A stretch of 64,000 nt of DNA from Flavobacterium pisciphilum (GTDB lineage Bacteria > Bacteroidota > Bacteroidia > Flavobacteriales > Flavobacteriaceae): the NCBI RefSeq assembly GCF_020905345.1, contig NZ_JAJJMO010000001.1, forward strand, positions 4,340,001 through 4,404,000, written 5' to 3'. This document shows positions 6,422-28,775 of the stretch, one piece after another. Under the pieces are notes generated by a model, which saw nothing but the letters and a program-made list of their open reading frames with translations, was not told the DNA's origin and searched no databases. The position numbers and the translations under genes are program-made. Positions within the stretch are counted from its first letter, which is position 1. Every line of letters begins with the position of its first letter.

Positions 6422-7825
6422 TTATTTAAAAGTATATAATCTTGACGATTTTACTTTATTTGCCCTAATTATTTCTGCTGCAAACATCTTAACTTTGTCT
6501 AGCATATCTCTTCTGTCATATATATGGACGCTTGAAGAATTACTTCTTTTGGACGGGTGGGTAACATAGCTTATAATCATCTCGGTAATATTTAATAAAG
6601 ATAAATTGCTAACAAAAGAGCTTCTTAAGTTGTGAGTACTGAACAAGTGACTGTTCTCGACTTCAACAGATTTAAGTATGTTTCTGATGTTGATATTGAG
6701 ATTAGCGAGACTAATGTTTGAAAAATCGGGAAAGATATCATCATTGTTTTGGATGATTTTTAATGCTGTGGAAAATAGAGGAGTATAGCATTCTGTTCCC
6801 GTTTTAGCTTGGATAGTGTGTATGTAGTAGAAAATGTTTTTATTTTCATCACACATTTGAATTGTTCTACATTTAGCTTCCTGCATTGATTGGAGGCGCA
6901 TACCTGTTTGGCTGGCTATTAGAATATAGTTTTTTACTAGTTCCAAATGTTTTGATGTGGGTATGTATTCTATTACTTTTAGGATATCCTCTTCTTTAAG
7001 AAACGCTTCAGTTTTTGCAGATTTATTTCTTGTAGAAGCATTAATTAAATTTTTATCTGATAGATCTAATGGGATTCTTATGTCTAGTTTTTTAGCAGCT
7101 TTGCAAAGTAGTATGAAATATGTTTGGTATGCTTTTAAGGTGTTCGCTGCAAGTGCTTCTTTTGGCTCTAGTTTGTAACTAGTTACTAAAATTTTGCCAG
7201 TTCTAATATTATTTAATACTTCCCAAATTTCTCGATATACTATTTCATTGATTTTGTCAAATGTTAGTTTAATCTTTTTTGCTTCTTCATAACGTTTTAT
7301 TATCGGAATAAGATTTCTAAAAGAGTTAATAGTGGTTTCTTTAACTTCATCTTTGCGTGCACTACCAACAAGGTTTTCTAAATAACTAATATGGTCGTTA
7401 AGAAAGTTTAGTATTATAAAATTTTCTTCTGGTTTTCTTTTATCTCGCCCACTAATTAGAAGAAGATAATTTTTGACTTCTTCTGGACTTGGTTCTTCAT
7501 TTTTAAAATGAGACGCAGTAGCTATTATATTTGATTCAAAATCGGATAGCCTAATTCTTAACAGTTTATTGCGTTTCTCATATGTTTTAATTGTCTGTAG
7601 GTCATAAACATAATTCCGAACACCTCTTTTTTCTCGGATTACACCAAAATACTTTGGTAAAATTGTTACTTCTAAGGAGTATTGAAATTTTTTATAACTA
7701 ATTTTTCCATCTACTTTATTTATAAACGAACCACTAACCTCGGCGAGCACTAATTCAGGGCTAGTCCGACGCTCAAGTACTTGACTTTTAGCTTTCAATT
7801 TATAACGATAAGTAATTGCTTTCAT
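6422..7825 (-). CDS. tyrosine recombinase / integrase
   Basis: This is a site-specific tyrosine recombinase of the Bacteroidota type, with an N-terminal arm-DNA-binding region, a SAM-like core-binding domain and a C-terminal catalytic domain. The full catalytic set is visible: R310 in GMRLQS, a beta-hairpin lysine in QAKTG, H398-x2-R401 in HNLRSS, H423 in THPSKRS and Y436 in HIYDRRD. It therefore looks active. I chose the ATG at 7825 over a TTG three codons upstream. A promoter -7 box sits 6 bp before that ATG, so the message may be leaderless. The gene lies 293 bp from a 64-bp repeat that recurs 13 kb away, consistent with that repeat being its recombination site. Confidence 0.9.
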   Translation of the reverse strand: MKAITYRYKLKAKSQVLERRTSPELVLAEVSGSFINKVDGKISYKKFQYSLEVTILPKYFGVIREKRGVRNYVYDLQTIKTYEKRNKLLRIRLSDFESNIIATASHFKNEEPSPEEVKNYLLLISGRDKRKPEENFIILNFLNDHISYLENLVGSARKDEVKETTINSFRNLIPIIKRYEEAKKIKLTFDKINEIVYREIWEVLNNIRTGKILVTSYKLEPKEALAANTLKAYQTYFILLCKAAKKLDIRIPLDLSDKNLINASTRNKSAKTEAFLKEEDILKVIEYIPTSKHLELVKNYILIASQTGMRLQSMQEAKCRTIQMCDENKNIFYYIHTIQAKTGTECYTPLFSTALKIIQNNDDIFPDFSNISLANLNINIRNILKSVEVENSHLFSTHNLRSSFVSNLSLLNITEMIISYVTHPSKRSNSSSVHIYDRRDMLDKVKMFAAEIIRANKVKSSRLYTFK

Positions 7826-7831
7826 GATAAT

Positions 7832-7839
7832 CAAAGATA
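7832..7839 (-). promoter_or_regulatory. -7 promoter box of the integrase gene
   Basis: The minus strand reads TATCTTTG, an exact match to the Bacteroidota TAnnTTTG box. It ends 6 bp before the chosen ATG, implying little or no 5' leader. No good TTTG -33 element is seen. The tandem 12-bp repeats at 7855-7878 occupy that position and could replace it or act as an operator. Confidence 0.4.
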
Positions 7840-7854: not shown

Positions 7855-7878
7855 AGGTCTCTAATTAGGTCTCTAATT
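7855..7878. repeat. tandem 12-bp direct repeat upstream of integrase
   Basis: AGGTCTCTAATT occurs twice without a gap (7855-7866 and 7867-7878). A weaker relative, TTAGTCTCTACATT, lies at 8077-8090 next to the left 64-bp repeat. I saw no such copies beside the right 64-bp repeat. The position fits arm-type binding sites of a tyrosine recombinase or an autoregulatory operator; this is inference. Confidence 0.5.
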
Positions 7879-8522
7879 TTGTGGTATTAAATGAAAAAAA
7901 TTGATATATTTTGATTGTTTTATTTTTTGTAGATCTCTGTAAAGCCTTTTGAATACTGGTAAAGTGCCGTTATTGTTGGATTCTTGTTTTTTGAATAATT
8001 TACTCTACAGATAAGTAATTCATGGAAATTTGTAACTGAAAATCAGTTTTTTATTGTTTAAAAATAAGTAACTCAATTAGTCTCTACATTTTATAGGCGT
8101 TTCTAAAAAGTTGGCGCAAAGATAGCCTTTTGGTGCTAACAAAAAAAGGGAGTTTTTAGCTATCTTTTTTATTGAATTTTAGAGTGTTTACTCTCTATTT
8201 TAATTGTTGAGTATTTGAATGGAATTTGTTCAAATTTTTAATATGCGTATAAGTAAATCAATGTGTTTATTGTAGAATGGGATATATCATTGCTTATTCT
8301 ACACCCTTCTTGAATTATAGTACTTTTTTTGGAAAGTGATTTTAGATATATGTAGTTTTGGGTTTTTTAAATTCTTTAAGATTCCCACATTCCTGGAATC
8401 AGGCATATGTCAGTTTGTTTCACAAAATGATATTTTATTACCGATTTATTCGGAACTTGTGGGTAGTGAAGTTGGAAAAATGTATAATTTAAAATTAAAA
8501 ACTTATATTTTTTAATTAGTCT
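7879..8522. other. intergenic region between integrase and mcrC, holding the left 64-bp repeat
   Basis: Apart from the recombination-type repeat at 8118-8181 and the weak arm-like copy at 8077-8090, I see no gene here. On the minus strand it is the region after the mcrC stop and before the integrase. Confidence 0.4.
8118..8181. repeat. 64-bp direct repeat, left copy (putative attachment site)
   Basis: This is identical to 21080-21143 at 63 of 64 positions, the single difference being T at 8137 against C at 21099. It contains an inverted repeat: AAAGATAGC at 8118-8126 and GCTATCTTT at 8159-8167. Between the arms is a 32-nt spacer that can itself pair (CCTTTT with AAAAGG). Sequence on either side differs between the copies, so identity ends sharply. 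It lies 293 bp upstream of the integrase start and 341 bp beyond the mcrC stop. An attachment or cassette site is the best explanation; a duplicated terminator or regulatory hairpin is the alternative. Confidence 0.75.
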
Positions 8523-9788
8523 TTAGTTATTAGTCTTATTTATAAAGGCAGAAATATTTGTTCTTATTTCTTCTTGCCACGATTTAATGTGGCCTTTTTC
8601 ATTTATATCGAGTAACAAAACGCTACAATGTTTATCTCCGACTAAACCGCCAAAATCCAAAAAAGTTCCTGACTTTCCATTTTCTTTTTTACCTGGATAT
8701 ACCAAAGCTACTTTTTTGGCTCTATAATATTCATGGTAAACGTACATTTGACGTAAATCATCTGGAGAAGGATTACTGCCATTTAGATTTTTCCATTTGG
8801 TATCTAAAACAATATTACCCGTTGAAGTTTCAATAACAATATCTGGGATCATTCGAGTTTTTCTACCAGTTTCAGGTCTCCAAAAATATTTTAGAGATTG
8901 AGAGATTACCTTTGTAACTCCTTCTGTTTTTTTTCTTAGACTTATATAAATGAATTGTTCCCAAAGTAAATTCATATCAAACATTAGAGCTAAGACATGA
9001 TTTTTACCTTTGCTAACATCAGGATGGTATTTTAATAATAATAATTTTGCTATTTCAATTGCTTTCTTATAGTGCTGATTTTTTCGATTAAAATGTATTT
9101 TATCAAATGTAGCTTCCGTTACTTTAATATCTGGCATTTCAGGAAAGTTTAGCAATAGAGATCCGATACGACTGTGAAGATCATTGTTTGTGTTGATTTG
9201 TTTCAACAGTTTTAAAGCTTTATACAAAATAAAATGCAGTTCATGTTCTACATCATAGGTTGTATGTTTCACATAAAAGCGTTCTTGATGAGTTAAATTA
9301 TATTGAATCTGTTTAGCAAATTGTAAACTTCCTTTTAATGCTGTTACATTAGCTTCCCTTTTCCTATATTTTTTAATTAATCCGTTATGAATTAAATATT
9401 CTAATTCTTTAAGATATAGTTCCAAATACAAGTCTAAGATTGTGTTGGGTTTGATTTTTAAATTACTTGAACTTGTAGATTTTACATCGAAACTTCCAAC
9501 GGCTTTAAGCATACCAATTAATAAATCACGCCATTTATTATCTTCCGAAATCGAGAGTGGTTTTCTATCCGCTTTAGGTAATACTTCAATTAGAGTACTG
9601 CCAACTTGAATTACACCAACATGTTCATTGAATTGAACCCCATGATGAACCAATTTGTAATAAGGCACACCATCACCATAATAGCGTTCAAGAGCTTCGA
9701 ATTGTTCTTTGGATATTTTTTTTTCACCTCTATCATACCGAAGGATTTCATGTTCAAAAACAACTATTTTTTTAGTATATCCAGCCAT
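8523..9788 (-). CDS. mcrC: McrC family 5-methylcytosine restriction subunit
   Basis: This is the nuclease subunit of a modification-dependent McrBC system. The 421-aa protein has the usual N-terminal partner-interaction half. A C-terminal PD-(D/E)xK core is visible as RMIPDIVIE followed by VLDTKWK, near residues 305-325. Its ATG at 9788 abuts the mcrB stop with no gap, so expression is coupled. McrBC cleaves phage or foreign DNA carrying modified cytosine after GTP-driven translocation by McrB. It is the last gene of the seven-gene defence series. Confidence 0.9.
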   Translation of the reverse strand: MAGYTKKIVVFEHEILRYDRGEKKISKEQFEALERYYGDGVPYYKLVHHGVQFNEHVGVIQVGSTLIEVLPKADRKPLSISEDNKWRDLLIGMLKAVGSFDVKSTSSSNLKIKPNTILDLYLELYLKELEYLIHNGLIKKYRKREANVTALKGSLQFAKQIQYNLTHQERFYVKHTTYDVEHELHFILYKALKLLKQINTNNDLHSRIGSLLLNFPEMPDIKVTEATFDKIHFNRKNQHYKKAIEIAKLLLLKYHPDVSKGKNHVLALMFDMNLLWEQFIYISLRKKTEGVTKVISQSLKYFWRPETGRKTRMIPDIVIETSTGNIVLDTKWKNLNGSNPSPDDLRQMYVYHEYYRAKKVALVYPGKKENGKSGTFLDFGGLVGDKHCSVLLLDINEKGHIKSWQEEIRTNISAFINKTNN

Positions 9789-12458
9789 CTATTTTAGTAA
9801 TGTTGCAATAGCCATTTTCATTTCTTCATCTTCAAATAATAAAATATCCTTTATATTATAGATGGTTTTTTCAGTGAAATCAGATCCATCATAATCATGA
9901 AATTCAGCAAATAAAATATCATTTTCTTCAGAATTAATCGGCTCAAAAAAGCCTTGACCTAAGATCAATCCTATTTTACCATAATCTCCAAAGAAATATT
10001 CTTGTAAAAGAGGAATAATTTTATTTCTGAATGCTAATTTTAAATCATCAAAATTATTTACTGCCATAAAATAACTATGCCCAATAGTATGATCTTTATC
10101 TATTAAATATTCAATACGTTTGTTGATTTTTTCCAACAGTTTTTTTAAATCTACTCCATTAACAGAAAAAGAATCAAAATAAGAAATATTAGATTTGTCT
10201 TTTTCTTTTTTCATTGTTTCCCAGACACTAACCTTATTAGTACGCCACTCTTCAGAAACTTCTAACAACGAAAATAATTCATTTTCTTTTTCAACGAATT
10301 TTTTATCCTGCCATCCAACAAACTCATATTTCCATAATAAACGGCAATACATTCCAGACGGAGTTAGCAAGTTTGCTTGAGGCAACATTTCCTCAAAACT
10401 AAATCTTCTTCGTAAGGCAGTATCTAATGCTTCGATACTTCTGTCAGCAGTATTCATAGTACCAATAATATATAAATTTGAAGGTACGCCAAATTCTTCT
10501 TGGCTATAGGGTAAAGTTATATCAGCAATCTCATTTTCTCTGCCTAAACGTTTGTCATCTTCAATTAAAGTTATTAACTCTCCAAAAACATTCGACACAT
10601 TGCATCGATTTATTTCATCTAAAAATATAACATGAATGTTGCCCGTTACAGCAGCTTTTTCAAAAGCAATTCTTCTTTTTTCTTTGGTCTTACTCAGACA
10701 ATCTTTGAGATTAATAAAACCCGCCTTTTGTGCTGCTTTTTCGCAAGCATTGTAAAAGATCCCTTTTCTAGTCTCATAGATTAAATTTTTAGATTCTTCA
10801 TCGTCTAATGTGTCAGAATCGTTTAACCTTGGTTTTATCCCCTCAATAAAATCTTCATAACTCAAACTTTGGTGACAGGTTGTAAAAGTATATTCCTTGC
10901 TCTTCGTATTGTCGCTTATTTTGAATTCTTCGTAGGCTTCTATGAGAGGGGGAAATTCTGATTGAAATTCAGCTCTGCTATCTAACCTCCATTCAGAATT
11001 TGATTCTTTATAGAAAACTTTTTCACCTACACGTTTCGCTAATTTTACATTTATGCAATTATCTACAGTATGATTTTGCAAACTACTCCATAATCGAGTT
11101 TTTAAACTTTTAACATTACTAGATCCTAATTTTGCAATGATTAAAGGATGTTGGGCTAAATCAGGAACGATTATTTTTTCTTTTTCAAATAAGACTAGCG
11201 CTATAATTTGCCACCAGGTATAGTTTTTTACAAAAGAGTTATAATCTTTTTCAGTTCCTGTTTTTTCATCTAAATCCCAATATTTTATAATTTGCTGAAG
11301 TTCATAGGTTTTCCCAGTTCCTGGAGGCCCGTAAAGAATTTGGTTTTTTGGAATATACATATTAGTAGCTATAGTATTAGTTTGTACAGGATTTTTTTCT
11401 TGACTTGATTGGGTATCATCATTCCATATTATCTCAATATCTGATTTTTTGGTAACTTCCTTTATAGTTTGCATATATCCGCCAAAATCAACTTCAAAAG
11501 GTTTAAAGTCTTCTTCCCATTGTATTTCGAGGTTTTGACCGTCGTTTAGATTCCGTATTACAATTCCCCTAGCTTTTATTGCCATAACTGCTTTTGTCTT
11601 TTCTCGAACAAATGCTGATTTAATAGCTATATTACTTCCTGCAGGAACACCATTTACCTCCTTATTAAATTTGTCTGTATATCCGTTAGTCCAAATGCTT
11701 TCTTTTATGAAACGCCCTGTTTGATCTTGTGGATTTTCAGTATCCCAAAATGCTCCAACAAGAAAATACTTTTCACTACTTTTATATTCACAAAAAAAGG
11801 TATCATAAAAACGTCGTAATCCAATTTGTTTGTGCGTAACTGTTGTTGGAAGATTATTTGCTGCTTTAAAGAAAAAATCTAAAACAGGATCTTTCATTTT
11901 AGCGCCATTTCCTCTTTTATCTAAATTATCAATAAATTGTTCTTTAATTGAATTATCTATAAAATCATTATCTATTAACTTTAATTTGCTGTTTTCAAAA
12001 GTTAATTGAATATCCTCTGAATTTTCTATAACATCTTGACTTTTGACAATTTTAATTGATCTGTATAATTCAGGATTTTTATAAAATTGAGAATCTGACA
12101 AATCAGTTAGTGGAATATTTTTTAACAATTCTAATTTAAAAAAAGCTTTACTTCGAGCAGATCTTGAAGTTAGGACTGCCAATGCTTTAGTTAGGTATAA
12201 GTATTTTAATGCAATTAATTGTGAAACGTTAATTCCTAGATCACGATTTAACACATCAAATTTTAAAATATCTTTACCATTTTTAATATTCCATTCTCGG
12301 GCTTTCCAAAACTGTATTTTGTCGCCACCAATCAAATAGACGAAATCACCTATTTTCAAATCTCCATACCAAGATGAACCTTGAGGAGCTATATAATAAC
12401 CATCATTTATTTGATTTATATCTATTTTTTGTGAAATTTTACCGAAAAATATATTCAT
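9789..12458 (-). CDS. mcrB: McrB family AAA+ GTPase, restriction subunit
   Basis: This 889-aa protein has a large variable N-terminal region of about 370 residues. The region opens with a fold resembling EVE/PUA modified-base readers ([19 protein letters not shown]) and probably recognises modified DNA. The AAA+ motor follows: Walker A GPPGTGKT near residue 377, Walker [10 protein letters not shown] near 612 and the McrB signature MNTADRS near 667 with RRRF after it. It forms a ring that activates McrC, encoded immediately downstream. The gene starts 13 bp after the dCTP deaminase stop on the same strand. Confidence 0.9.
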
Positions 12459-12471
12459 GCTCTTTATTTAG

Positions 12472-14466
12472 TTATTTCGAAATTTCACTTTTTACTTTTT
12501 CAAATAATTCTGGCTGTTTCTTGAATTTCTCACTTAATTTTTTAATATCTTCTTCATTAAATCGTTCTCTTGGTGAAATATTTGTGAGTATTTTTAATTC
12601 ATCTTTGTATGCCATAAAAGGCTCATATAATTTATGAAAAGCTCGACCAACAGCACCTTGAAACATTATTAACTGTGGGTTGTACGTTTCATTAATACCA
12701 TTTTTTAAAGTATGTTTAGTTGCTATTCCGGGATATGGATCAATATAAAAAACTTTCTTAATACCTAATTGAAATGCTTTCTTTGAACACAACTCACATG
12801 GACTTGCAGTTGTAAATAAATTACCGCCTTTAAGTCCATTGCCACCATTCTTAGTAATTTGCATCATTGCATTTTCTTCTGCATGTAGTGATCTTGTGTG
12901 TACTTGGTTTTTTTCTTTTTCGTACGTGTTTTGAACTGATTTAAAACAAAATGGACAGTTTTTACCCTCAAGATTTACCGCCACATTTTTTAAATCTTTA
13001 TAATCCTCTTGTAGAAAATCTTTAAAGGTTCTAACATTATCATTTTCATCTCTAAATTCACCGCCTGATTTTTCATAGTCACTAAATAAATTTGAAGGAG
13101 AAGGTGTTAACAAATTTTCAACATTTCTTAAGTTACATGGTATTTGATGTTGTGCAACATCATTCCATCCAATAGATTTGACAGAATAATTTTCATCAGT
13201 AACAACAGCTCCGACTTGTCTTGAAATACAACCCGAATTAAATTTAGCATTATATGCTACCTGCATACACCTTTCAATACCAGTAGGTGTAATAATGCCA
13301 GGTTGATGTATTAAAGATGTTAATTTAACTAATTGTCTATCAATGCTTAAAAAGTCATAGTTACTAGTTGATTGCGGTTTTTCCTTTTTTCCTTGCTCTG
13401 TATTTGAAAAATAAATATGGTAATCACTTTTTTGAATACAATTTTCGGTGTCAGGTGAGGAGAATTCCCCTTTGTTTACATCGCCACCATCATATTCATT
13501 TTCATCTAAAAATAAAATTTGATTTGAATGTTTTAAAACACTATCGTTGTCTAAATGCTTATATTTATCTCTTATCTGTTTTTCAACATATTCTCGTCTT
13601 TCTATGTCACTTTTGTTAGTTGCAATCATGTAAAAAGCAGAATATTTTTCTTTGAAATACATTAATTCTAAAGAGTTTTTTAAGGCATCAATTACAATTT
13701 TTGTATTCTCGGAATTTGCTTTCCAAACTTTTATTAATTTATTAATTGTTTCAGCAACGGTATAAATGTTATCTAGAGTTTTATCTTTTTTCTGAATATT
13801 GTGTTCAAGGTTTCTTACAGTACCATATTCTCTTAAATTATTTGCTAAATCATGAACCAATCTTGTTCGCTTGGTGATGTCATAATTGTTCAAAATTTCA
13901 TAAAACTCTTTTGAGAATTGTTCAAAGAAATTAAAGTAAAATTCAAAAAAATCAGGATCGTCTTTTTTTTCTTTTAAGCAAACATTTAAATCATTACAGC
14001 TTAATTCAATTAATTTCTCAAACCATTTTTTATTTTTATTTAGAAAATCGCCAATTTTATTAATTAAAATGCTGTCAATTTTTAAGTCAAATCGATTAGT
14101 GAACTTCTTAAAAGTGCCATTTTCGCCATTTTGAAAAATAATGTCAATAATATTTTTAATCGATGAATTAATGTCTTCTTTGTTCTCAATTATTCCTTGA
14201 TGAAATAAATGCAAGAGTAAAACATCTTTATAATAAATGACATGAAACTGTTTCCAGTTATCTGAATGACTTAAATAATTACAACATATTTCAAATTTTA
14301 TTTCTTCTGCTTCTAATGAATTTCTTTTGACTGAATTTAAAATATTATTGTCGAAATTATCTGACAAAAGCCATTTAGCAATTTCTGAACAACCTGAGCC
14401 CACTCTACCTGTTAATCCAATAATCGTAAAGTCTTTTCGTAAAGAATATAGTTTTTTTAATTTCAT
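12472..14466 (-). CDS. anti-phage dCTP deaminase (AvcD/DCD-like)
   Basis: The 664-aa protein couples an N-terminal P-loop (GLTGRVGSGCS, residues 17-27) to a C-terminal zinc deaminase domain. The deaminase carries H528-A-E530 and P-C557-E-L-C560, the classic dCMP/dCTP deaminase metal and proton-shuttle residues. This two-domain layout is that of the anti-phage dCTP deaminases, which deplete dCTP and dCMP during infection and starve phage replication. The start codon overlaps the preceding small gene by 4 bp (ATGA). It sits between the type I R-M genes and mcrBC, so nucleotide depletion and DNA cleavage are probably co-expressed. Confidence 0.87.
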   Translation of the reverse strand: MKLKKLYSLRKDFTIIGLTGRVGSGCSEIAKWLLSDNFDNNILNSVKRNSLEAEEIKFEICCNYLSHSDNWKQFHVIYYKDVLLLHLFHQGIIENKEDINSSIKNIIDIIFQNGENGTFKKFTNRFDLKIDSILINKIGDFLNKNKKWFEKLIELSCNDLNVCLKEKKDDPDFFEFYFNFFEQFSKEFYEILNNYDITKRTRLVHDLANNLREYGTVRNLEHNIQKKDKTLDNIYTVAETINKLIKVWKANSENTKIVIDALKNSLELMYFKEKYSAFYMIATNKSDIERREYVEKQIRDKYKHLDNDSVLKHSNQILFLDENEYDGGDVNKGEFSSPDTENCIQKSDYHIYFSNTEQGKKEKPQSTSNYDFLSIDRQLVKLTSLIHQPGIITPTGIERCMQVAYNAKFNSGCISRQVGAVVTDENYSVKSIGWNDVAQHQIPCNLRNVENLLTPSPSNLFSDYEKSGGEFRDENDNVRTFKDFLQEDYKDLKNVAVNLEGKNCPFCFKSVQNTYEKEKNQVHTRSLHAEENAMMQITKNGGNGLKGGNLFTTASPCELCSKKAFQLGIKKVFYIDPYPGIATKHTLKNGINETYNPQLIMFQGAVGRAFHKLYEPFMAYKDELKILTNISPRERFNEEDIKKLSEKFKKQPELFEKVKSEISK

Positions 14467-14726
14467 AATTGGTTTCTTAGTTGGATTGTAGCTACCATTT
14501 GGTCTACATTATTTGCATGATGTTTAATGTTGTTAATTATAATTGAAACTCTTGTAAAAGTTCCACCAGGAACCTCAATTAAACTTGTTTTGACAGTACC
14601 TTTTTGAGTTAATTCAAACATTGCTATTTTGAATTCATTCATTATTTTTAAATCTTTTTCCATAATTTTTTGTTTATTATAATCTGTTATTTCTTCAATT
14701 ATAATTACAATTTTAGGATAAGTCAA
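14463..14726 (-). CDS. small protein of unknown function coupled to the dCTP deaminase
   Basis: The product is up to 87 aa. A TTG at 14726 gives the longest frame, 30 bp after hsdS; an ATG at 14663 would give 66 aa. Residues 5-13 are a short hydrophobic strand (KIVIIIEEI) and the rest is mixed polar, with no recognised family. The stop overlaps the deaminase start (ATGA), so the pair is translationally coupled. In the Vibrio AvcID system the deaminase is held inactive by an upstream RNA. A protein regulator or partner of the deaminase would be a reasonable guess here, but it is only inference. Confidence 0.55.
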   Translation of the reverse strand: MTYPKIVIIIEEITDYNKQKIMEKDLKIMNEFKIAMFELTQKGTVKTSLIEVPGGTFTRVSIIINNIKHHANNVDQMVATIQLRNQL

Positions 14727-14756
14727 TAGTTTTTATAAAAGAAAATGATTTATTTT

Positions 14757-16103
14757 TCAGAGCTTCACTTTTTTTGTAACCACTTTCTTTTTCTCCACTT
14801 TAATAGACAGCCCTTTCAACTCCTGTATTTGTTGCAACAATTCTCTAGCATCTCCATCCGTATCTAATTGCTCTACTAACTCGCCTTTAAACGCTTTATG
14901 TAAAATAGCTTGTGGCAAAGTATCTATTTTTTTTTTGAGGGTTTCGTATTGTTTTTCTATAGCATCGGCTTTGGTAAACAAGCTTTCAATAGATCTAATT
15001 ATTTCTATTTTTTCTTTTAATGAAGGTAATTTTATATCAATATCCTTAAAGCTGTTTTGAGAAATATTTCTCATTGAAAGTTGGTTTCCAGTAGCTCTTG
15101 ACTCGATTTCAGATCTTCCTTTTTTAGTTTTTAAATAGTAATTTAAATATTTTTTATTAAGTTCTTCTTTAAAATTAATTCGCCAAACTTTATCACTTAG
15201 CATTATATCGAAATCAATTTCATGTACAATTACGGATGAGCCTACGAGTTCTAAAGTATTTGCTCTTGAAATTAAAAAATCCCCTTTTTTTATAAAAAAA
15301 GCATTGTTTATTCTGCTTTTATCTTCGACTGTTTTAGTTTCTTTTTGATTAAATTGATTCCAAGTAACGGCACTTATTTTTACTAAACCAACTTGACCTT
15401 GACTCACTGATGTTTCAAGACATAAAAAACTTTTTCCTGCTTGAATAGAATCAATTAAATTACCAACTTTCATTTCCTTCCATTCCTCCAACTCCTTCCC
15501 AACTCTCCAACTCTCTGTCAATTTTCCAGTAACGGCTTGCGTCAAGACTTGCTGTCTGAAGTCTTTAAGCAAAACAGGAATAGTTGCCATACTAGTTTTT
15601 ATGCTTTCCAATTGATCAAAAAGACATTCTAGTTTGGTTACTATTCGGTTTTGCTCATTCAATGGTGGGAGGGGGATATAAATAGAAGCTAAATCAGTTT
15701 TATTAAATCCATTTTGGGCGGTTCTTTGTATTGATAAAATTGGCTCTTGGAACAGATTAGATTTTAATATCCATTTTACGAAACTTTTATTCATGTTTTG
15801 GGGTATATCAACTTTTGCAAGCGCTACATTATAAGAACCTTCCATTCCCGTAACTATTCTTCCAATTGAAGCTCCATATCTTGCTATAAGAATATCATCC
15901 TTTTGACATGTCATTAATTTCCCTGTATCAGGAATATAAGTTGGAACTGGTTTTTTTCCAAAATCTCTAATTTGTAAAAGTCTTATATATCCATCTCTAG
16001 GTTCATCTATAAAAACTGATTTCGGTGGTTGCGTCCCGCCATTTATATCGAAGATGTCTGTAAATGGAATTTCAACCCAGTTTTTTGGCAATTGCTTTTC
16101 CAT
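14757..16103 (-). CDS. hsdS: type I restriction-modification specificity subunit HsdS
   Basis: This 448-aa protein has two target-recognition domains, roughly residues 1-170 and 200-385. Each is followed by a helical spacer: LPPLNEQNRIVTKLECLFDQLESIK and the related SLKEKIEIIRSIESLFTKAD. The two half-sites determine the bipartite DNA target read by HsdM and HsdR. Its ATG shares one base with the hsdM stop (TAATG). Only one hsdS is present, and I see no inverted partial copies nearby that would allow specificity switching by shuffling. Confidence 0.92.
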   Translation of the reverse strand: MEKQLPKNWVEIPFTDIFDINGGTQPPKSVFIDEPRDGYIRLLQIRDFGKKPVPTYIPDTGKLMTCQKDDILIARYGASIGRIVTGMEGSYNVALAKVDIPQNMNKSFVKWILKSNLFQEPILSIQRTAQNGFNKTDLASIYIPLPPLNEQNRIVTKLECLFDQLESIKTSMATIPVLLKDFRQQVLTQAVTGKLTESWRVGKELEEWKEMKVGNLIDSIQAGKSFLCLETSVSQGQVGLVKISAVTWNQFNQKETKTVEDKSRINNAFFIKKGDFLISRANTLELVGSSVIVHEIDFDIMLSDKVWRINFKEELNKKYLNYYLKTKKGRSEIESRATGNQLSMRNISQNSFKDIDIKLPSLKEKIEIIRSIESLFTKADAIEKQYETLKKKIDTLPQAILHKAFKGELVEQLDTDGDARELLQQIQELKGLSIKVEKKKVVTKKVKL

Positions 16104-17563
16104 TAACTTAATTCTTTTATCATTGCATTTAATTGCTCAGTAATACTTTGCAATTCTAAAAGAGCTTCTCTAGCAATATCAATAGGTTCACCTAAATCAT
16201 TAGAGTTTGTTAAAGAACTATCTGCAATTAGGCCTAAATCTAAATTGAAATTCTTTTTTTCAATTTCAGTACGAGAAATACTTAGCCATCTTTCGTCTTT
16301 AATAGTTTTTCTTTTTTCATCAGAAACTAATCCATTATAGTCTTTTTCTACTTTGTCAAAAGATATTCCACCGGTGTATGCCAACACAAAATCTTTAAAG
16401 GCTTTTTCTGTAAAAGGCGTGCGCTTTCCATAGCTTGGTGCATTGGTACGCATATCATAAAACCAAACATTTTGTGTATTATTGGTTTCTGTTTTTTCTC
16501 TGGTAAAAAATAAAACATTAGTTTTTACACCAGCAGCGTAGAAAATACCAGTTGGCAAACGTAAAATAGTATGCAAATTGCATTTGTCCATTAGGTCACG
16601 ACGTATTTTTTGTCCGTCGCCATCTTCAAACAATACATTATCTGGTAATATAACCGCAGCTCTTGCTTTCCCATCTTTTTTTAAACTACGGTAAATATGC
16701 TGCAAAAAATTCAATTGCTTGTTACTTGTAGGAAACGTAAAATCATCACGAGTAGGGCGTTCGCCTCCTTGTTTCGTTCCAAATGGAGGATTTGCTAACA
16801 CACCGTCAAAATCCTTGAGAGTTTTACCAAATTCAGTCAAAGTATCTCCTAGATAAATTTTGCTTTCCATTCCATGTAAACGAGCGTTCATCAATGCTAA
16901 ACGATGCGCATCAGGAACTAATTCTACTCCTGAAAATGCTTGATTTGTTTGGAAGTTTCTATCTTTTTCAGATAAATGGTAATAATTGTCGTATTTAGAA
17001 CGTAAATAATGATCAGCTGAAATCATGAATCCAAAAGTTCCAGCTGCTGGGTCTGTCCAACGTTCACCCAATTTTGGGGCTATCAAATCGACCATAATGT
17101 TAATTAGTGAGCGAGGAGTAAAATATTGTCCTGCACCACTTTTCTTTTCGCCTGCATTTTTCTCTAATAAACTCTCGTAAATGTCTCCCATGACATCACG
17201 GTCGTTCTCTTCATACCAATCGAGTTTATCAATAGCAGTTACAATAGAGCGAAAGTTTACAGGTTTACGTAAACTAGTTGAAGCATTACTGTATATTTCT
17301 TTGATGCTTTGGCTATTGGTTTTGGTGCTTACGGTCGCTAGAAATTCACGATAGCGAGCAAAAGCTTTATTATTGTCGTGTTCTTTTACAAAATATTGCC
17401 ATTGGTATTCGGCAGGAATGTGCTCATCAAATCCTTTTACTTCACTTAGTTTTAAAAAAAGAATATAGGTTAACTCGTTTAAGTATTCGTGATAGGTTAC
17501 ACCATCGTCACGTAATACATTACAAAGATTCCAGAGTTTGTTGGCTATTTCTTGTGCGCTCAT
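16103..17563 (-). CDS. hsdM: type I restriction-modification DNA methyltransferase HsdM
   Basis: This 486-aa N6-adenine methyltransferase subunit has an N-terminal helical HsdM domain. The SAM-binding motif I region reads TDPAAGTFGFMISA, and the catalytic motif IV is NPPFG near residue 258. It protects host DNA at the sites set by HsdS and forms the M2S core of the restriction complex. It lies between hsdR (83 bp upstream) and hsdS (1-bp overlap). Length and motifs are normal, so it looks intact. Confidence 0.95.
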   Translation of the reverse strand: MSAQEIANKLWNLCNVLRDDGVTYHEYLNELTYILFLKLSEVKGFDEHIPAEYQWQYFVKEHDNNKAFARYREFLATVSTKTNSQSIKEIYSNASTSLRKPVNFRSIVTAIDKLDWYEENDRDVMGDIYESLLEKNAGEKKSGAGQYFTPRSLINIMVDLIAPKLGERWTDPAAGTFGFMISADHYLRSKYDNYYHLSEKDRNFQTNQAFSGVELVPDAHRLALMNARLHGMESKIYLGDTLTEFGKTLKDFDGVLANPPFGTKQGGERPTRDDFTFPTSNKQLNFLQHIYRSLKKDGKARAAVILPDNVLFEDGDGQKIRRDLMDKCNLHTILRLPTGIFYAAGVKTNVLFFTREKTETNNTQNVWFYDMRTNAPSYGKRTPFTEKAFKDFVLAYTGGISFDKVEKDYNGLVSDEKRKTIKDERWLSISRTEIEKKNFNLDLGLIADSSLTNSNDLGEPIDIAREALLELQSITEQLNAMIKELS

Positions 17564-17646
17564 TGTTTATTTGTTGTGAGGATATTCCTCAAATTATGTA
17601 TTATGGGTATTATTTGTTTTTTCTGCAAAGAAGGAAATAATTTTGT

Positions 17647-20600
17647 TTAGGCAGTATACAAATTTTCATTTAATGTAGATAAAATGTTATCTAAATCATT
17701 TTCAAATATTTTATTCAATTTTGTAAATCCACCTTCATCACTAAATGGTTTTGAGTCTAAATCGGCTTTTGTTAATACAGTTTCTACTAATAATTGTTTT
17801 TCAAATCTATCTAGCCATTTTAGTTGAGTGGCATTCCAAGGACGACTATTCTTTACTTTGTTAATGGCATTTTTAATACGATCATCATGACTTATTAAAT
17901 GTGTATCCAGAGCTAAAGTTCGTATGAATGAAATAATATCTGCTGCCAAATCTTCATTTTTGGCTGTTTTCCACGCTGTCGAAAGTGTTATTTCATTATA
18001 GCCTTTTTCATCTAGTAGTAATTTTAGCTCCTTCAATGATTTACGATCTAGATCTGCCGGTTTAGTGCAAATAGTTCTTAATGCTATAATTTGATTTCGA
18101 TTTTCTTCAATATATTTTTTGAAACCTTGTATGTAATCTTCTGGTTTTTCCGCTTTTCCATAACCACGTTCAATACCTATTACTTGATCATCATGCTCAG
18201 AAACAAGTTGCATTTTAGGTTGATAGATTTTTTTGTCTAGAAAGTCCCAAAGACTTGTATAAGAAGTAAGCACTTTTTTGATGTTGTTGTTTTCAATCTC
18301 TAAGAGATTCTCGATAAATTCTTCTGGTGAATCACCTTTTGCCAAATACATGAAATGATCTCTTTGATTTTCATCAATTTGTTTCTTTTTTCGCTGCAAT
18401 TTTGCAACAATTTGCTCTAATTGTTTTTTAGCACGTTCAGGTGTATCAATATATTCTAATTCTTCAATCAATTTTTGAAATGAAATAGAAGGATTAGAAA
18501 CAGTCTTCATCTGAGTATAATCTTCTAAAGCTTCATATACACGAACGGCATCATAAATTTTGAAAAATTGTTTGTCAATTTCTGGACATAATCGTGTCGC
18601 TCTTCCTAACATTTGTTCAAAGAGAATACGTGATCGAACCCTTCTAATAAATACTAAATTAACTATTTGAGGCACATCAATTCCAGTTGTTAGCAAATCG
18701 ACTGTAACTACAATGTTTGGGAATTTTTCGTTTTTAAAACGTTTGGTTAAATTTTCTACATCGTAAACTTTACCGGTGAGTTTTTGTATTGTATCTTGCG
18801 GAACTTCAACGCCAATAGATTCAAATTCTTCAAATAGCAATTGAACGATCAAATCGGCATGACTGTCACGAACAGCAAAAATCAATGTTTTTTCATCACC
18901 TTCGGGATCTAATCTTTGAACTAGCTCTTTAATAACTGCTCGATTAAAAGATTCTGTAATTACTAATTTGTTGAATTGTTCAATTTCAATATGTAACTCA
19001 TCTTCTAATTCTGCAAGTTCTTCGATTTCATTAGTTTCAGAATTAAGCATTTTTGGTTTTTCTCCCTTTTCCCATAATATACCTTCTTCGCTTAATTTTG
19101 TTTTAATGATGTAAGGAGGTTCGTGATCTGTTAAGAACCCGTCGATAACAGCTTCGCGATAGGAATAATTGTGTACAGGTTTTCCAAAAATCTCTGTAGT
19201 ATGTAAAGCAGGGGTTGCGGTTAATCCTACGATGTATGCATTAAAATATTCGATTACTCTTTTATACTGCCCGACATAGTCGTTTTCATCCTTAAAAGAT
19301 AAATCTTCTTCGTTAATTTCTTTGTCAAGATTATAGCCTCTATGTGCTTCATCAATAATAATACAATCGTAAGTATCGATAGGCAATATTTCATTGGCTG
19401 TATAAAATAATCTTTTTACCATACTTTGTACGGTTGCGAAATGTAGACGTGTTTCAGCTTCAGGAAATACACTTTTCATTTCTTCCATTTTATAAATGTT
19501 GGAAAATGTATTAATATCTTCGACTTTGTTATCCTTAAAATTGCCTAAAGCCTGACTTGCTAATAATCGACGATCAGTTAAAAATAAAATACGTTTGAAA
19601 CGATCGGATTTTATCATTCTGTATACAAAACCTATGGTAGTTCTTGTTTTTCCTGTACCAGTTGCCATAACAAGTAGCGAACGTTTATCTTCAGGATTTT
19701 GAATGATTTTTTCTTCAACGGCTTTTATAGCATCAATTTGATAATAGCGTAATCCTAATCCGTTTGGATTTTGAAGATAATCATAATCACTCTCTTGAAG
19801 ACGGATATTTGCAGTTTCAACATCTCTTGAATATTGTTCTACGATTCCTTGTGGAGAAAACCAGCCTCTTAATGCTTGCGCTTTATTTCGTTCTTTTCTA
19901 ATATCTAAAAACCAAATTCCACTTTTCGTTTTAATTTGCTCTAAATAATTTCGACCATTCGTAGAAAATAAAAAGGGAACTTTGAAATTATTCCATTGAC
20001 CTAGAGTTTTAAAATCAGGTGAAAGTTCTACTAACTCTGCATAAATTTTTGATTGTTGTAAATCAGTAGAAATGTCAGTTGCATATTTCTTGGCTTCAAC
20101 AATACCATATAATTCTGTTCCAATAAAAAGTGCATAATCAGCCCATTTGCCTTTACAAGGCCACTCTGCAATAGCTTTGTTTTTGCCCTTTTCAGGAAGT
20201 GTTTTGTTGTTTTTGTAATTGATCAGCAAAGAATCACATTCCCAACTAGCTTCAGACAATTGTTTGTCAATTAATATTTTCCTTGTATCGGCTTCGTCAA
20301 GTGTAATATTATTAGCATTTCGGTTCGATTTTTCTTTTCTCTTAGAAATGATTTCAGGTGTAGCATTGAAAGATGCTATTTTTATTTGATAATCAATGAC
20401 TTCCTTAGATAATTTATCTAATTCGTTGTTAAGCGCTGTAATTGTTACATTATGGTTATTTTCGTGAAGTTGATAATCTCCTTTTTCTAGAAAATCATTT
20501 TCATATGTTTCGAAGAACCATTTGCTTAATTGATAACTCTTTTTCAATATAAATACTGCTTCAGAATTTGTACCGTTTCCATCATGACTGGCTTTATTTC

Positions 20601-20865
20601 CAGACTTTCTTACGGTATGCAACAAATCTTTAATTACCTCTGGTATACAATTTTTATAAAACAATTGATTAATTCGATCGACTTGATTACCGTCAAAAAA
20701 TGCTAGATCTTCAAACTGCCAAATTAAGATTGTCATTTTTTCAGAAAACAGGCGCAATTTTGATAAAGAAGAGCTAGGGTCTAAATAGTATAGCTTTTCA
20801 GATAATTCACTGATAGCAAATAATTCGGGATATTTATCTTGTAAAAATGAAAATTTTGAAGCCAT
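17647..20865 (-). CDS. hsdR: type I restriction endonuclease subunit HsdR
   Basis: This is a 1072-aa motor/nuclease subunit. An N-terminal DUF4145-like helical part (KSGNKASHDGNG) is followed by a nuclease core (LYGIVEAKKYA). The SF2 helicase has ATGTGKT near residue 401, DEAH (IIIDEAHRGY) near 504, GLTATP, and motif VI FEQMLGRATR. It translocates DNA and cuts unmodified invaders with HsdM and HsdS. It is the first gene of the defence series, with a promoter-like box 63 bp upstream. All expected motifs are present. Confidence 0.95.
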   Translation of the reverse strand: MASKFSFLQDKYPELFAISELSEKLYYLDPSSSLSKLRLFSEKMTILIWQFEDLAFFDGNQVDRINQLFYKNCIPEVIKDLLHTVRKSGNKASHDGNGTNSEAVFILKKSYQLSKWFFETYENDFLEKGDYQLHENNHNVTITALNNELDKLSKEVIDYQIKIASFNATPEIISKRKEKSNRNANNITLDEADTRKILIDKQLSEASWECDSLLINYKNNKTLPEKGKNKAIAEWPCKGKWADYALFIGTELYGIVEAKKYATDISTDLQQSKIYAELVELSPDFKTLGQWNNFKVPFLFSTNGRNYLEQIKTKSGIWFLDIRKERNKAQALRGWFSPQGIVEQYSRDVETANIRLQESDYDYLQNPNGLGLRYYQIDAIKAVEEKIIQNPEDKRSLLVMATGTGKTRTTIGFVYRMIKSDRFKRILFLTDRRLLASQALGNFKDNKVEDINTFSNIYKMEEMKSVFPEAETRLHFATVQSMVKRLFYTANEILPIDTYDCIIIDEAHRGYNLDKEINEEDLSFKDENDYVGQYKRVIEYFNAYIVGLTATPALHTTEIFGKPVHNYSYREAVIDGFLTDHEPPYIIKTKLSEEGILWEKGEKPKMLNSETNEIEELAELEDELHIEIEQFNKLVITESFNRAVIKELVQRLDPEGDEKTLIFAVRDSHADLIVQLLFEEFESIGVEVPQDTIQKLTGKVYDVENLTKRFKNEKFPNIVVTVDLLTTGIDVPQIVNLVFIRRVRSRILFEQMLGRATRLCPEIDKQFFKIYDAVRVYEALEDYTQMKTVSNPSISFQKLIEELEYIDTPERAKKQLEQIVAKLQRKKKQIDENQRDHFMYLAKGDSPEEFIENLLEIENNNIKKVLTSYTSLWDFLDKKIYQPKMQLVSEHDDQVIGIERGYGKAEKPEDYIQGFKKYIEENRNQIIALRTICTKPADLDRKSLKELKLLLDEKGYNEITLSTAWKTAKNEDLAADIISFIRTLALDTHLISHDDRIKNAINKVKNSRPWNATQLKWLDRFEKQLLVETVLTKADLDSKPFSDEGGFTKLNKIFENDLDNILSTLNENLYTA

Positions 20866-20928
20866 CGATAATCTTTCAAGTTTTTTTAATTTTTTGAGCT
20901 AATCTCAGTTCAAAAATGTAGTTATATA

Positions 20929-20936
20929 CAAACATA
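20929..20936 (-). promoter_or_regulatory. -7 promoter box of the hsdR-mcrC gene series
   Basis: The minus strand reads TATGTTTG, matching TAnnTTTG, 63 bp before the hsdR ATG. A weak -33 match (TTTAG) lies 17 bp further upstream at 20954-20958. No other convincing promoter was seen within the seven-gene series, so this may drive all of it. Confidence 0.4.
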
Positions 20937-21079
20937 CTGAAAAGGATTTAAAACTAAAGTGGGGAAAACAGTAATAAAAAATAAAATGTACTTTCATTAC
21001 TCTGTAAATAATTAATTAATAGTGTTTTATTGGTTTTAATCAAACTTTTGGATTTGTTGAAAAATAAATTGAAGCTGAA

Positions 21080-21143
21080 AAGATAGCCTTTTGGTGCCAA
21101 CAAAAAAAGGGAGTTTTTAGCTATCTTTTTTATTGAATTTTAC
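21080..21143. repeat. 64-bp direct repeat, right copy (putative attachment site)
   Basis: This is the second copy of the repeat at 8118-8181, in the same orientation and exactly 12,962 bp away. The 9-bp inverted repeat and T-rich end are preserved. It lies 215 bp upstream of hsdR and 303 bp before the TonB-type receptor gene, and marks the probable right end of the island. The arm-like 12-bp repeats found near the left copy are absent here. Confidence 0.75.
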
Positions 21144-21445
21144 TTAGTTAATTAAAACTAGTATATCCTTTCATAGACTTAATATATTACCGGGAATTAA
21201 ATCATCAAAAACGATTTTTAGCTAGGCTATATCACTACTTAAGCTATTTTGCTGAAGAATTTATTGTGTGTTTTTTCTTTCTTTATTTTTAATTTTAACA
21301 GTATTTATTTTTGATTATTAAAATTTTGATTTACTATTGCTTCTTTATGAAGCGATAACTAACAGGATTGATTTACTCCTATTTGATATCGCAGCATAAT
21401 TAAAAAAGAAAATTAGAAGTAGTATTAATTAAAAACATACGGAGT

Positions 21446-23749
21446 ATGAGATGTAAATTATTTTATGGAATTGTTGTAATGAATATGGTGTTTTCTATTA
21501 ACAGTTATTCTCAAATTAAAAAGGATAGTATTGTAAAAATAGAAAAGGAAAAAAAAGTAATTAAATTAGTAAAGGAAGAAGCACAGAATGTGATGTTGAA
21601 TGCTTCTAATGATAATGGTCCGCGAAATGTAAATATTGGTTTGCCTGCCAGTATTGGTGGTACTACAATTTTAGAAAATGGGCTTCCAGTTGTTTATAAT
21701 TGGGCAAGTCAAAACCCTACAAGCGCCTGGCGAGCAGGATCAGGATTTAGTAAGTTTCAGGTGCAAACAGTTGGAGAAACAGCTATTTCTATTGGAGATG
21801 TAGGAGTTTCAGTAAGTACCTATAGTAATAGAGGAACTGAGAAACACCAGCAGAATTTAGCTCTTAATTCTAATGGATTTGGGCTTTTAAGAGGAGATGT
21901 AAGTTTTAGTGGTCCTTTAAAAAACGATTGGTATTATGCTGGAAGTGTATTTTTAAATTTTGACCCAGGTACTTTTAAGTCTGACTTCACAGACTATTTT
22001 GATAAAACTCAAATTTATAAAGGGGTAATCAGTAAGAGATACAATGCAGGCAAAGGGGAAATTTCAGTTCAGTACAAGTTTGCAAATTCTGAGGGAATTA
22101 GTTCTAAAGTGAGTCCTTATACTTATAATTTGGACGGAACAGTAAGTCAGTTTGGAGATTTTAAAATAGGAAGAAATTCTTATTTAGAACGTTCAGGAAA
22201 GTCAATTATAATTAATCCTATTACTGGACAAAGGGAAATACTTGATCAAATGAAAGATATGGGATCTACTACAAATGCGATAGATATCATGGGTAATAAT
22301 AGACTTGGGAATGGCATGAAACTAGATTATGTAGTCCGTTATCAGAATGCTAAATCAGGTTTGTACAATCCTTATTTTACAAGTCTAAGGAAAATTGATG
22401 ATTCAAAAAATCGCTATGTATATGTAGATAATCAGAATGAAGTGTATCAAGGGGATTATGTGCAAGGAGTATTAGCACTAAATACACCAAAAATTTCACA
22501 GAATACGATTATGGGGAGAGTCGATTTAAGTAAAAAGACTCAGAAGCACCATTGGTCAATTGGCTTAAATGAGTTTAATTATAAGATAGATGACTACTAT
22601 CAGTCTACCTACAATATGATTCAGGAAGTAGCTGCTAATCCTAGTAAATTAATTACTCAGATAAAAGATAGTAATGGAAATTGGGTAAACGATTCTAGAA
22701 TTGATGAATATGGGAATTCAGGTTATAACGCGGCTTTACAATATTATTCAGGTAGAGAAAATAAACTAGCCCTTTATGGAACTGAAAAATGGATTGCGAA
22801 TGAAAAATTAGAATTTAATTTTGGAGCCCGATTAGAATGGCAACGTATTGATGGTTTTTGGTATCCTAAATCTAGCAGAGATGCGGCAAAAGAAGAGGGA
22901 TTTCAAAATAATCAGATAGATATGTCTAAGAGACAATCGATACAAAAAGATTGGTTTAATAAAGCTTTTACAGCTAGTTTTCTTCATAAGACATTTGATA
23001 ATATTGGGTTCTTAGCTGATATTTCTTATACAGAAGTAGCTGGTAATTTAAGTAATTATTCGGGTGCTGATGATCCAAATATTTCACCTTCACAGATTCC
23101 AGGAGCATCTGCAGGAACTTATTTTAATCATCCTTTGGTGAGTTTGGTTTCTAAAATAACGTACATACAACGTAACAATTTCAAAAACAATTCTTCTTTT
23201 CAGGGAGGACACAAACAAACAATTACTTATGATATTCAAACGATAGGGTGGACTACCGACATGGAAATAAAGCCTTTTAAAGGATTTAAATTTCATGCGT
23301 TGCTAACGCTTCAAAATCCTGAGTACAAAAACTTTGTTGTCGATTTAAGTGAAGTTGCTGCTGAAGGAAATAAAATTTATGATTTTAGTGGAGGTACTGC
23401 TCGTAGCGTATCAAAAGTTCTTGTTGAACTAGATCCAAGTTATTCTTATAAAAACTGGAGGGTATGGGTTAGTACTCGTTACTTTAGTAAAGAAGCGGCA
23501 AACTATCCTAACACCTTATTTTTTGCTAGTCGTTGGGAAACATTTGGAGGAGTTGCTTGTAAGTTGAATAAAAAAATAGATTTAAATCTTAATGTTGTGA
23601 ACTTTTTAAATCAAAAGGGAGCACAAGGATCTATCTCGGGAACTAATACAACAACTGCAGAAGAAGCTCAAGCTTTTGACGGCAGACCATTAGTAGGGAC
23701 TTATATGCGTCCTTTTACAGTTGAATTTGGAATAAAAGTAAAATTATAA
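21446..23749 (+). CDS. TonB-dependent receptor-type outer-membrane protein
   Basis: The 767-aa protein has a signal peptide ending near residue 22 (INSYSQ) and a short charged linker. A plug-like region at about residues 40-150 is followed by a long series of amphipathic beta strands typical of a 22-strand barrel. It ends in MRPFTVEFGIKVKL, an outer-membrane-type C-terminus. The N-terminal carboxypeptidase-like domain often found in Bacteroidota receptors is absent. A secreted histidine phosphatase follows 19 bp downstream. The receptor may therefore import a phosphorylated compound or the product of its hydrolysis; the substrate is unknown. Confidence 0.75.
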   Translation: MRCKLFYGIVVMNMVFSINSYSQIKKDSIVKIEKEKKVIKLVKEEAQNVMLNASNDNGPRNVNIGLPASIGGTTILENGLPVVYNWASQNPTSAWRAGSGFSKFQVQTVGETAISIGDVGVSVSTYSNRGTEKHQQNLALNSNGFGLLRGDVSFSGPLKNDWYYAGSVFLNFDPGTFKSDFTDYFDKTQIYKGVISKRYNAGKGEISVQYKFANSEGISSKVSPYTYNLDGTVSQFGDFKIGRNSYLERSGKSIIINPITGQREILDQMKDMGSTTNAIDIMGNNRLGNGMKLDYVVRYQNAKSGLYNPYFTSLRKIDDSKNRYVYVDNQNEVYQGDYVQGVLALNTPKISQNTIMGRVDLSKKTQKHHWSIGLNEFNYKIDDYYQSTYNMIQEVAANPSKLITQIKDSNGNWVNDSRIDEYGNSGYNAALQYYSGRENKLALYGTEKWIANEKLEFNFGARLEWQRIDGFWYPKSSRDAAKEEGFQNNQIDMSKRQSIQKDWFNKAFTASFLHKTFDNIGFLADISYTEVAGNLSNYSGADDPNISPSQIPGASAGTYFNHPLVSLVSKITYIQRNNFKNNSSFQGGHKQTITYDIQTIGWTTDMEIKPFKGFKFHALLTLQNPEYKNFVVDLSEVAAEGNKIYDFSGGTARSVSKVLVELDPSYSYKNWRVWVSTRYFSKEAANYPNTLFFASRWETFGGVACKLNKKIDLNLNVVNFLNQKGAQGSISGTNTTTAEEAQAFDGRPLVGTYMRPFTVEFGIKVKL

Positions 23750-23768
23750 ATTATAGAAATTTGTTATT

Positions 23769-24557: not shown

Positions 24558-24588
24558 TCTTAACCTAAATAGATTTTAAATTAAAATA

Positions 24589-24625
24589 AAAGGGTTCAAC
24601 TTTCGATTAAAGTTGGACCCTTTTT
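24589..24625 (+). terminator. Rho-independent terminator after the phosphatase gene
   Basis: AGGGTTCAACTTT and AAAGTTGGACCCT form a 13-bp stem with one G-T pair and a 5-nt loop, followed by TTTTT. It also faces the converging histidine kinase gene and may serve both. Confidence 0.8.
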
Positions 24626-24670
24626 ATATAGTTGAGAATTATTAATCATTATAGATTAATAAAAAAGTTT

Positions 24671-25678: not shown

Positions 25679-25680
25679 AG

Positions 25681-28063: not shown

Positions 28064-28126
28064 CAGCTTTTTTATTAAAATATTCTTATGGTTCAAAATT
28101 AGCCATTTTATGTTGCCTTATTTTAT

Positions 28127-28157
28127 CTGGTCCTATTTGTTTGTTAAAACTGGACTA
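28127..28157. promoter_or_regulatory. putative MocR operator (two direct repeats)
   Basis: CTGGTCCTA (28127-28135) and CTGGACTA (28150-28157) are near-repeats spaced 23 bp start to start, about two helical turns. They lie in the divergent regulator/GNAT intergenic region. Direct repeats at this spacing are typical of MocR binding sites. Confidence 0.5.
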
Positions 28158-28222
28158 ACTGAATACTCCTGTAATGAATGACATTTGCTCCTTTATAAAT
28201 CATTACTTAAAATTATTACATT

Positions 28223-28672: not shown

Positions 28673-28708
28673 TTAGTTTGACTTGAAATAATCAAGATAA
28701 ATTGTCAA

Positions 28709-28747: not shown

Positions 28748-28775
28748 GCTTTGGTTTATAAGGAAATTGATTGTT

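Follow-up and report, generated by a model that had tools for sequence, protein, structure and literature searches.

In Escherichia coli, the immigration control region holds its restriction genes in the order hsdRMS-mcrBC, and the CTnDOT-type integrative and conjugative elements (ICEs) of Bacteroidetes carry proteins of the TraG/J/K/M/N and MobB/MobC families. Type I restriction-modification (R-M) genes placed beside McrBC in one apparent operon have been reported for the E. coli McrBC branch (PMC11090510; compare the review PMC12707154), and genes lodged within type I R-M clusters are reported from Vibrio (PMC11411939). Tandem accretion of ICEs with decayed neighbours, the cis-mobilizable elements (CIMEs), has also been described (PMC5704250), and elements such as SXT in prfC and IMEVchUSA3 in dusA are reported to enter the 5' end of a gene and to supply its promoter (PMC8409611). 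The entry of recombinase-free defence genes into mobile elements has so far been largely inferred from static islands. Here we describe a ~13-kb restriction operon of Flavobacterium pisciphilum (GCF_020905345.1, contig NZ_JAJJMO010000001.1), bracketed by two copies of a 64-bp repeat and located among elements that are stacked at one ABC-F ATPase gene, at its 5' end. The window, that is, the whole stretch of DNA analysed, comprises 64,000 nucleotides (positions 4,340,001-4,404,000 of the forward strand). The structure is of a known kind, stacked elements, and its unusual feature is the joint.

The two repeat copies, located at 8118-8181 and 21079-21142, have the same orientation, are identical at 63 of 64 bases and lie 12,961 bp apart from start to start. 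The direct repeats of the original prediction are therefore real, its second copy (21080-21143) and distance (12,962 bp) being off by one, and the internal 9-bp inverted repeat that it described, AAAGATAGC/GCTATCTTT, is present as well. The repeat ends are sharp, as also claimed there: the left flanks of the two copies reach a similarity score of 66, which is at shuffle level (mean 58.0, standard deviation 5.6, maximum 74, n = 200), and the right flanks are unlike, with matches in different congeners. Searched with up to three mismatches, an 18-base and a 21-base probe match both repeat places in the window and no third; among 100 shuffles each, two or more chance matches arise in 2 for the first probe and in none for the second. 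Full-length matches in the 5.46-Mb genome are confined to these two places, the other 38 matches listed being short or partial. Rfam and tRNA searches at the repeats return no match, and a tRNA or known RNA was dropped as the identity of the repeat.

The 64-bp block forms the left end of integrative elements of one family, which insert into the ABC-F ATPase gene at its 5' end. Matches to the block (E ≤ 1e-3) occur in 25 of 299 Flavobacterium genomes, the F. pisciphilum genome included and being alone among them in holding two full-length copies. In nine others, a single copy, complete or almost so, lies at the ABC-F gene; the remaining ones mostly match in the terminator half or at other locations. 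At nine of the ten loci read, the block stands just upstream of a minus-strand ABC-F ATPase gene. An exact degenerate-pattern search in named species genomes (84,980 in the collection) reports 21 stretches, all from Flavobacterium, and the TAATTCA of an ABC-F-type core is found within 150 bases left of the block in 16 of them. Among the other five, L188, L194 and L196 are end variants by eye, L204 is truncated by the stretch limit, and L195 (strain Root935, which is genome G230) displays neither TAATTCA nor an end variant left of the block. In these end pieces, the core at the ABC-F start is usually followed by an arm-like pair of GGTCTCTAATT and then by the block. Complete or degenerate left ends are also seen on contigs other than that of the main ABC-F site in L188, L193 and L196 (F. 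shii, F. frigoritolerans and F. hydatis), which suggests secondary integration sites. The block itself seems to hold a replacement ABC-F promoter and a terminator. The -7 promoter consensus of Bacteroidetes is TAnnTTTG, and TATCTTTG, on the minus strand of the block, fits what we take to be this box; in the relatives, the block comprises AAAAAAAGATAGC and GCTATCTTTTTT separated by a loop, a terminator-like hairpin whose stem is partly broken in the window copy.

The empty-site comparison was made by joining the window flanks in a script, minus the cargo and one repeat copy, and aligning the result to congeners. The joined flanks match genome G284 over 199 bp at 92% identity, extending 18 bases past the joint, and once more, separately, over 443 bp to the right of this (81%); they match F. 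araucananum (G052) in one 743-bp piece across the joint (72%). The 13-kb operon is absent, in register, from both genomes, and the segment is therefore an insertion; this single-block state is the empty site that had been proposed as a check. In both of them, the genes for a 767-residue and a 262-residue protein, which in the window follow copy 2 (flank B), come right after the single block. Flank A, which follows copy 1, shares 26 of its 36 bases with the post-block sequence of G276, and 0 of 20,000 shuffles is as good. The same genome has different cargo behind this end block and flank A, namely Mrr, HsdM, HsdS, an AAA_13 protein and an EcoR124-type HsdR, amounting to Mrr and a type I R-M cluster of another kind. 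In the 18 kb read there, a second block occurs only as a 27-base partial match.

The ABC-F gene is present in 379 of 398 Flavobacterium genomes (E ≤ 1e-200), and its 5' end is an integration hotspot with varied cargo. The 58 sites read form a biased sample, as 9 come from block matches, 9 from end-block matches and 40 from high-scoring ABC-F matches; 7 of these 40 carry an end piece by eye. The next gene lies ~83-103 bp away at 17 clean sites, which have no end piece, and 0.6-18.6 kb away at 14 sites with an end piece; at 23 of the 58, the stretch read ended before this gene or did not reveal it. A regular expression scored 19 of the 58 sites as occupied and missed at least five that were seen by eye (G390, G249, G091, G244 and G102), and probably G179. 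No title or abstract opening found in the literature describes an ABC-F attachment site in Flavobacterium, or a defence island or accretion with such repeats.

The outermost element of the stack is a predicted ICE. The tyrosine recombinase, which the original prediction had correctly placed outside the bracket (6422-7834), is assigned a Phage_integrase domain (PF00589, E = 3.8e-5, 24 bits, below the Pfam cut-off of 27.1). It adjoins an ABC-F remnant consisting of the seven first codons and a stop (8000-8023). The intact ABC-F gene of the genome is located at C1:4219487-4220890, and its start (4220890) lies 127 kb left of the attR core, which itself lies 95 bp left of repeat 1. The attL and attR cores at the ABC-F start have TCTACAGATAA and TAATTCAT in common, and not the 64-bp block. 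The 127 kb between these cores encode TraG, TraJ, TraK, TraM, TraN, MobB (293, below its curated cut-off of 400) and MobC. As conjugation genes thus lie between attL and attR, this segment is an ICE by its gene content, with integrase, relaxase, coupling protein and conjugation genes, and the recombinase is its integrase. In G094, a similar ABC-F-site element has a 71% identical protein at its right end; the integrase of the 127-kb ICE is single copy in its own genome and has no match in a plasmid search at E 1e-5. Within the ICE, close to its right end, are two pairs of AAA ATPase and HNH-type (PtuAB-like) genes, at 3-2478 of the window and at 11052-14314 of L037, whose products are 31% and 26% identical.

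Outside the ICE, the native right-hand neighbour of clean ABC-F sites is found at 36175-37152, and the segment from 8004 to ~36,150 is therefore an older island. The core, arms and block at copy 1 are 92% identical to those of G284 and 91% to those of G276. Genes in the right part of the island include those for RND efflux, a histidine kinase and a GntR-aminotransferase. Pfam searches report no integrase or transfer genes in the cargo or in 10 open reading frames (ORFs) of 21446-35188, three of which have no family, the smaller ORFs being read by eye. The right edge of the island (35700-36170) comprises about three tandem copies, by eye, of a ~160-bp unit with GGGAGGGATTAACCGCAAA.

A second bracket is found in the same stack. 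The left end of the ICE recurs at C1:4237590, where a copy begins abruptly with AAGATA, 16.6 kb to the right of the complete one. In F. hydatis (G386), the same ICE end is contiguous, by eye, from the core to the first conjugation genes; from AAGATA onward it aligns to C1:4237590 over 7.6 kb (86.6%), and its core, arms and block align to the far-left copy, 16.6 kb leftward. Compared in 60-base steps, the identity of the far-left copy to F. hydatis stays at 92-97% up to ~0.2 kb beyond AAAGATA and is 62-80% thereafter. The 16.6-kb metal-resistance cargo (L056, 4315-19133) encodes a chromate transporter, ChrB, CusB-like and AcrB-family proteins, a P-type ATPase, HupE and superoxide dismutase. An integrase was not found in it (10 ORFs searched by family, the rest by eye). 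The right-hand copies of both brackets start within one base of the same place, and the duplicated length differs, 64 bp for the defence cargo and ~0.2 kb for the metal cargo, in what are two cases only. Nothing convincing was found as a right end common to both cargoes. The sequence left of repeat 2 had seemed by eye a possible element end and was rejected, with scores of 60-68 against shuffle means of 55-58. In G230, a third block starts at AGATACCC, at another locus near or after hemA; dispersed repeats occur on its right side, and no empty state of this locus was found. Twelve congeners were searched for one such repeat of ~97 bp, located ~0.4 kb right of this truncated block (L047, ~17250-17390), and at least 9 of them have matches at other loci.

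We consider it somewhat probable that the operon is cargo accreted in the element stack at the ABC-F 5' end by one-sided homologous recombination in the end block. Elements enter the first ABC-F codons and bring their own end piece, made of the core, the arm-type sites and the promoter/terminator-like block; the 127-kb ICE is the outer element, and the operon resides in the older island just outside its attR. Incoming DNA with a related end block would undergo a homologous crossover inside the resident block on its left, and on its right would be joined non-homologously to the resident block at AAAGATA. The left crossover and the right join would together duplicate the stretch between them, 64 bp here and ~0.2 kb in the second case. 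As a guess, the break may recur because the integrase cuts at AGATA, which also occurs in the core TCTACAGATAA. A fixed attachment site should give a constant duplication, and the differing lengths, together with the switch from resident-like to incoming-like sequence on the left, fit a homologous crossover. Consistently, the block of copy 1 is nearer to G284 (92%) than to G276 (86%), yet flank A resembles G276, a mixture that a crossover there would give. The ABC-F adjacency of the blocks in nine congeners, the gene distances, the empty sites, the ICE genes and the second case argue for this accretion. Several points weigh against it: no donor was found that has this operon next to an ABC-F block, the HsdR relatives lying elsewhere; the high identity of the left copies could stem from constraint on the core, arms and promoter, not from resident origin; and plain illegitimate joining would not be expected to break twice within one base of the same place, with a possible third case in G230. 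To these are added four sites (G389, G103, G223 and G289) that hold 1.6-3.9 kb with no recognised end, the weak folding support for the block (z -0.15 to -2.0), whose promoter and terminator roles are read from its sequence, and the result of a core search with up to three mismatches, which finds the core at 8004 and no second one right of 8022. The right attachment site of the older island would therefore be lost or unrecognised.

The recurrence of the break may also be taken to mean that the block acts as a loading dock, where recombinase-free cargo is set repeatedly between ABC-F block copies and joined within 1-2 bases of AGATA, perhaps through a nick by the ICE integrase at a core look-alike followed by homologous repair. 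Such a dock would outlast element decay, since the block seems to drive ABC-F and could not be lost; we hold this route to be unlikely. We are similarly doubtful of a site-specific, circularisable cassette that would use the 64-bp block as its attachment site, with a recombinase acting in trans at GCAAAGATA, a motif resembling what we take to be the CTnDOT core GTANNTTTGC. The exact bracket and the empty sites would suit such a cassette, as would the right-hand copies starting within one base in two cases, the block at AGATACCC elsewhere in G230, and flank A being common to G276, where it stands next to different R-M genes. However, the duplicated length is not constant, no recombinase is found in either cargo by family searches or, for the remaining ORFs, by eye, only 1 of the 25 genomes with a match has two full-length copies, and the second match of G276 is partial. 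Of the mobile defence cassette in the original prediction, the insertion is supported, at a place that is a hotspot with other cargo; a duplication of the 64 bp by the neighbouring recombinase is not supported, the cores of this enzyme being the ABC-F start.

Accretion followed by decay is a standard route in the ICE literature (PMC5704250), and ABC-F elements are stacked here, as the original prediction had suggested in proposing several elements at one site, now seen as the ICE, the older island and the second bracket. A tandem insertion by an ABC-F integrase, followed by deletions of the incoming right end and of the resident core and arms up to AAAGATA, would account for the joint. Two independent deletions would, however, have to end within one base of each other, and the left copy of the second case is resident-like in block and arms, not incoming-like, which makes this course of events quite improbable. 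Integron-like capture by the recombinase, also raised in the original prediction, draws on the position of this gene beside the bracket; it was rejected, as the cores lie at the ABC-F start on both sides of the 127-kb ICE, there is a single cargo, the repeat is an element end and an integron integrase acting at the repeats, as in a cassette array, is not supported by the place of these cores; we regard such capture as very improbable. Hardly credible is a chance or housekeeping duplication of a common terminator: the block is partly terminator-like and weak half-matches to other terminators exist, but the 63/64 identity covers the promoter part too and the empty sites are congruent. A plain terminator repeated at many loci, which the original prediction had named as its refutation, was thus rejected with two full-length copies in the genome.

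The bracketed operon has the order hsdR-hsdM-hsdS-(87-residue ORF, dCTP deaminase)-mcrB-mcrC (Table 1). As originally described, all genes run one way, on the minus strand, and all but one are assigned defence functions, the 87-residue ORF having no family. HsdR, HsdM, HsdS, McrB and McrC all carry family domains and are thus predicted to form a type I R-M system and an McrBC system. The deaminase matches PADLOC dCTPase (E = 2e-122) and scores 331.5 bits with NCBIfam NF041025, below the cut-off of 400. Type I R-M systems act against unmodified DNA, McrBC acts against modified DNA, and the deaminase drains dCTP; once in place, the operon would work as ordinary restriction. HsdR relatives (73-88% identity) occur in 10 of 397 other genomes searched, and eight of the ten loci were fetched and read (G390, G305, G230, G361, G186, G223, G286 and G017). 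McrB sequence follows HsdS in six of them (G390, G305, G230, G361, G186 and G223), and none was found after HsdS within the stretch read in G286 and G017. The two-gene hsdS-mcrB slot varies, holding PDC-M62A/B-like pairs in G390 and G305, PtuA/PtuB in G230, and in G186 a pair made of a PtuA-like and a weakly PDC-M62B-like gene; G361 has nothing there, nor does G223 as far as it was read. In the window, this slot (12458-14757) is filled by the dCTP deaminase and the small ORF, the sister loci being L220, L221, L222 and L227. Other neighbour proteins of the window are unmatched in the eight sister stretches, save AAA and HNH matches to slot genes, and the operon therefore also occurs away from the ABC-F site. 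Nine of 397 other genomes have relatives of the deaminase (46-50%), and in one of the nine, G120, distant type I R-M genes lie next to it. Upstream of hsdR, BLASTN homology to the sister operons ends at 20974 in G390, 20985 in G230 and 20969 in G305, leaving 93-109 bp of private sequence before repeat 2.

Table 1. Features of the window around the bracketed operon (positions in the window).
Feature	Positions	Strand	Remarks
Tyrosine recombinase, 470 residues	6422-7834	-	Predicted ICE integrase; reads away from repeat
Tandem GGTCTCTAATT pair	7856-7878	+	Probable integrase arm-type sites; also beside cores of left ends
Predicted ICE attR core	8004-8022	+	First ABC-F codons (MNYLSVE, then stop)
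Left-end arm region of older element	8024-8117	+	Chromosome side of attR
Repeat copy 1	8118-8181	+	Apparent ABC-F promoter -7 box (TATCTTTG, minus strand) and terminator-like block
Flank A	8182-8217	+	Common to post-block sequence of G276
McrC	8523-9788	-	PF10117, E = 7e-59
McrB, AAA NTPase	9789-12458	-	Family searches
Anti-phage dCTP deaminase, variant	12472-14466	-	Family searches; HAE and PCxxC motifs read
Small ORF, 87 residues (66 from first ATG)	14463-14726	-	No family
HsdS	14757-16103	-	Family searches
HsdM	16103-17563	-	Family searches
HsdR	17647-20865	-	Family searches
Operon upstream region	20866-20985	-	Homology to sister operons ends here
Repeat copy 2	21079-21142	+	Left side cut at AAAGATA; without core or arms
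Flank B	21143-24557	+	767-residue protein (no Pfam family) and 262-residue histidine phosphatase family protein
Native right-hand neighbour of clean ABC-F site	36175-37152	-	End of composite island

Within one genus, Flavobacterium offers empty sites, a single-block state and two loadings with a near-identical right joint, which makes the route testable by experiment, and a strong ABC-F integration hotspot is useful for finding defence genes. Among known systems, ICE-CIME accretion likewise places cargo without integrase or transfer genes beside a complete ICE at one attachment site; a CIME, however, keeps attL and attR (PMC5704250), whereas the repeat described here adjoins the core and resembles a promoter with a terminator. 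No integration or transfer genes were found in the older island, in its cargo and the 10 ORFs searched; of the two cores that flank a CIME, the search yields only the one at 8004, and the island thereby falls outside the definition. As with SXT and IMEVchUSA3, the 5' end of a housekeeping gene is entered, and a replacement start and a presumed promoter are supplied (PMC8409611). In contrast to these, the target is here an ABC-F gene, the element is a Flavobacterium ICE with a Bacteroidetes Tra/Mob set, and the promoter role is putative. The 127-kb ICE resembles the CTnDOT-type ICEs in its TraG/J/K/M/N and MobB/MobC families and differs from them in that its attachment core lies in the ABC-F coding start. 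Lastly, the bracketed operon shares with the immigration control region the succession of hsdR-hsdM-hsdS and then mcrB-mcrC in one direction, and differs from it by the variable slot between hsdS and mcrB, which here holds the dCTP deaminase.

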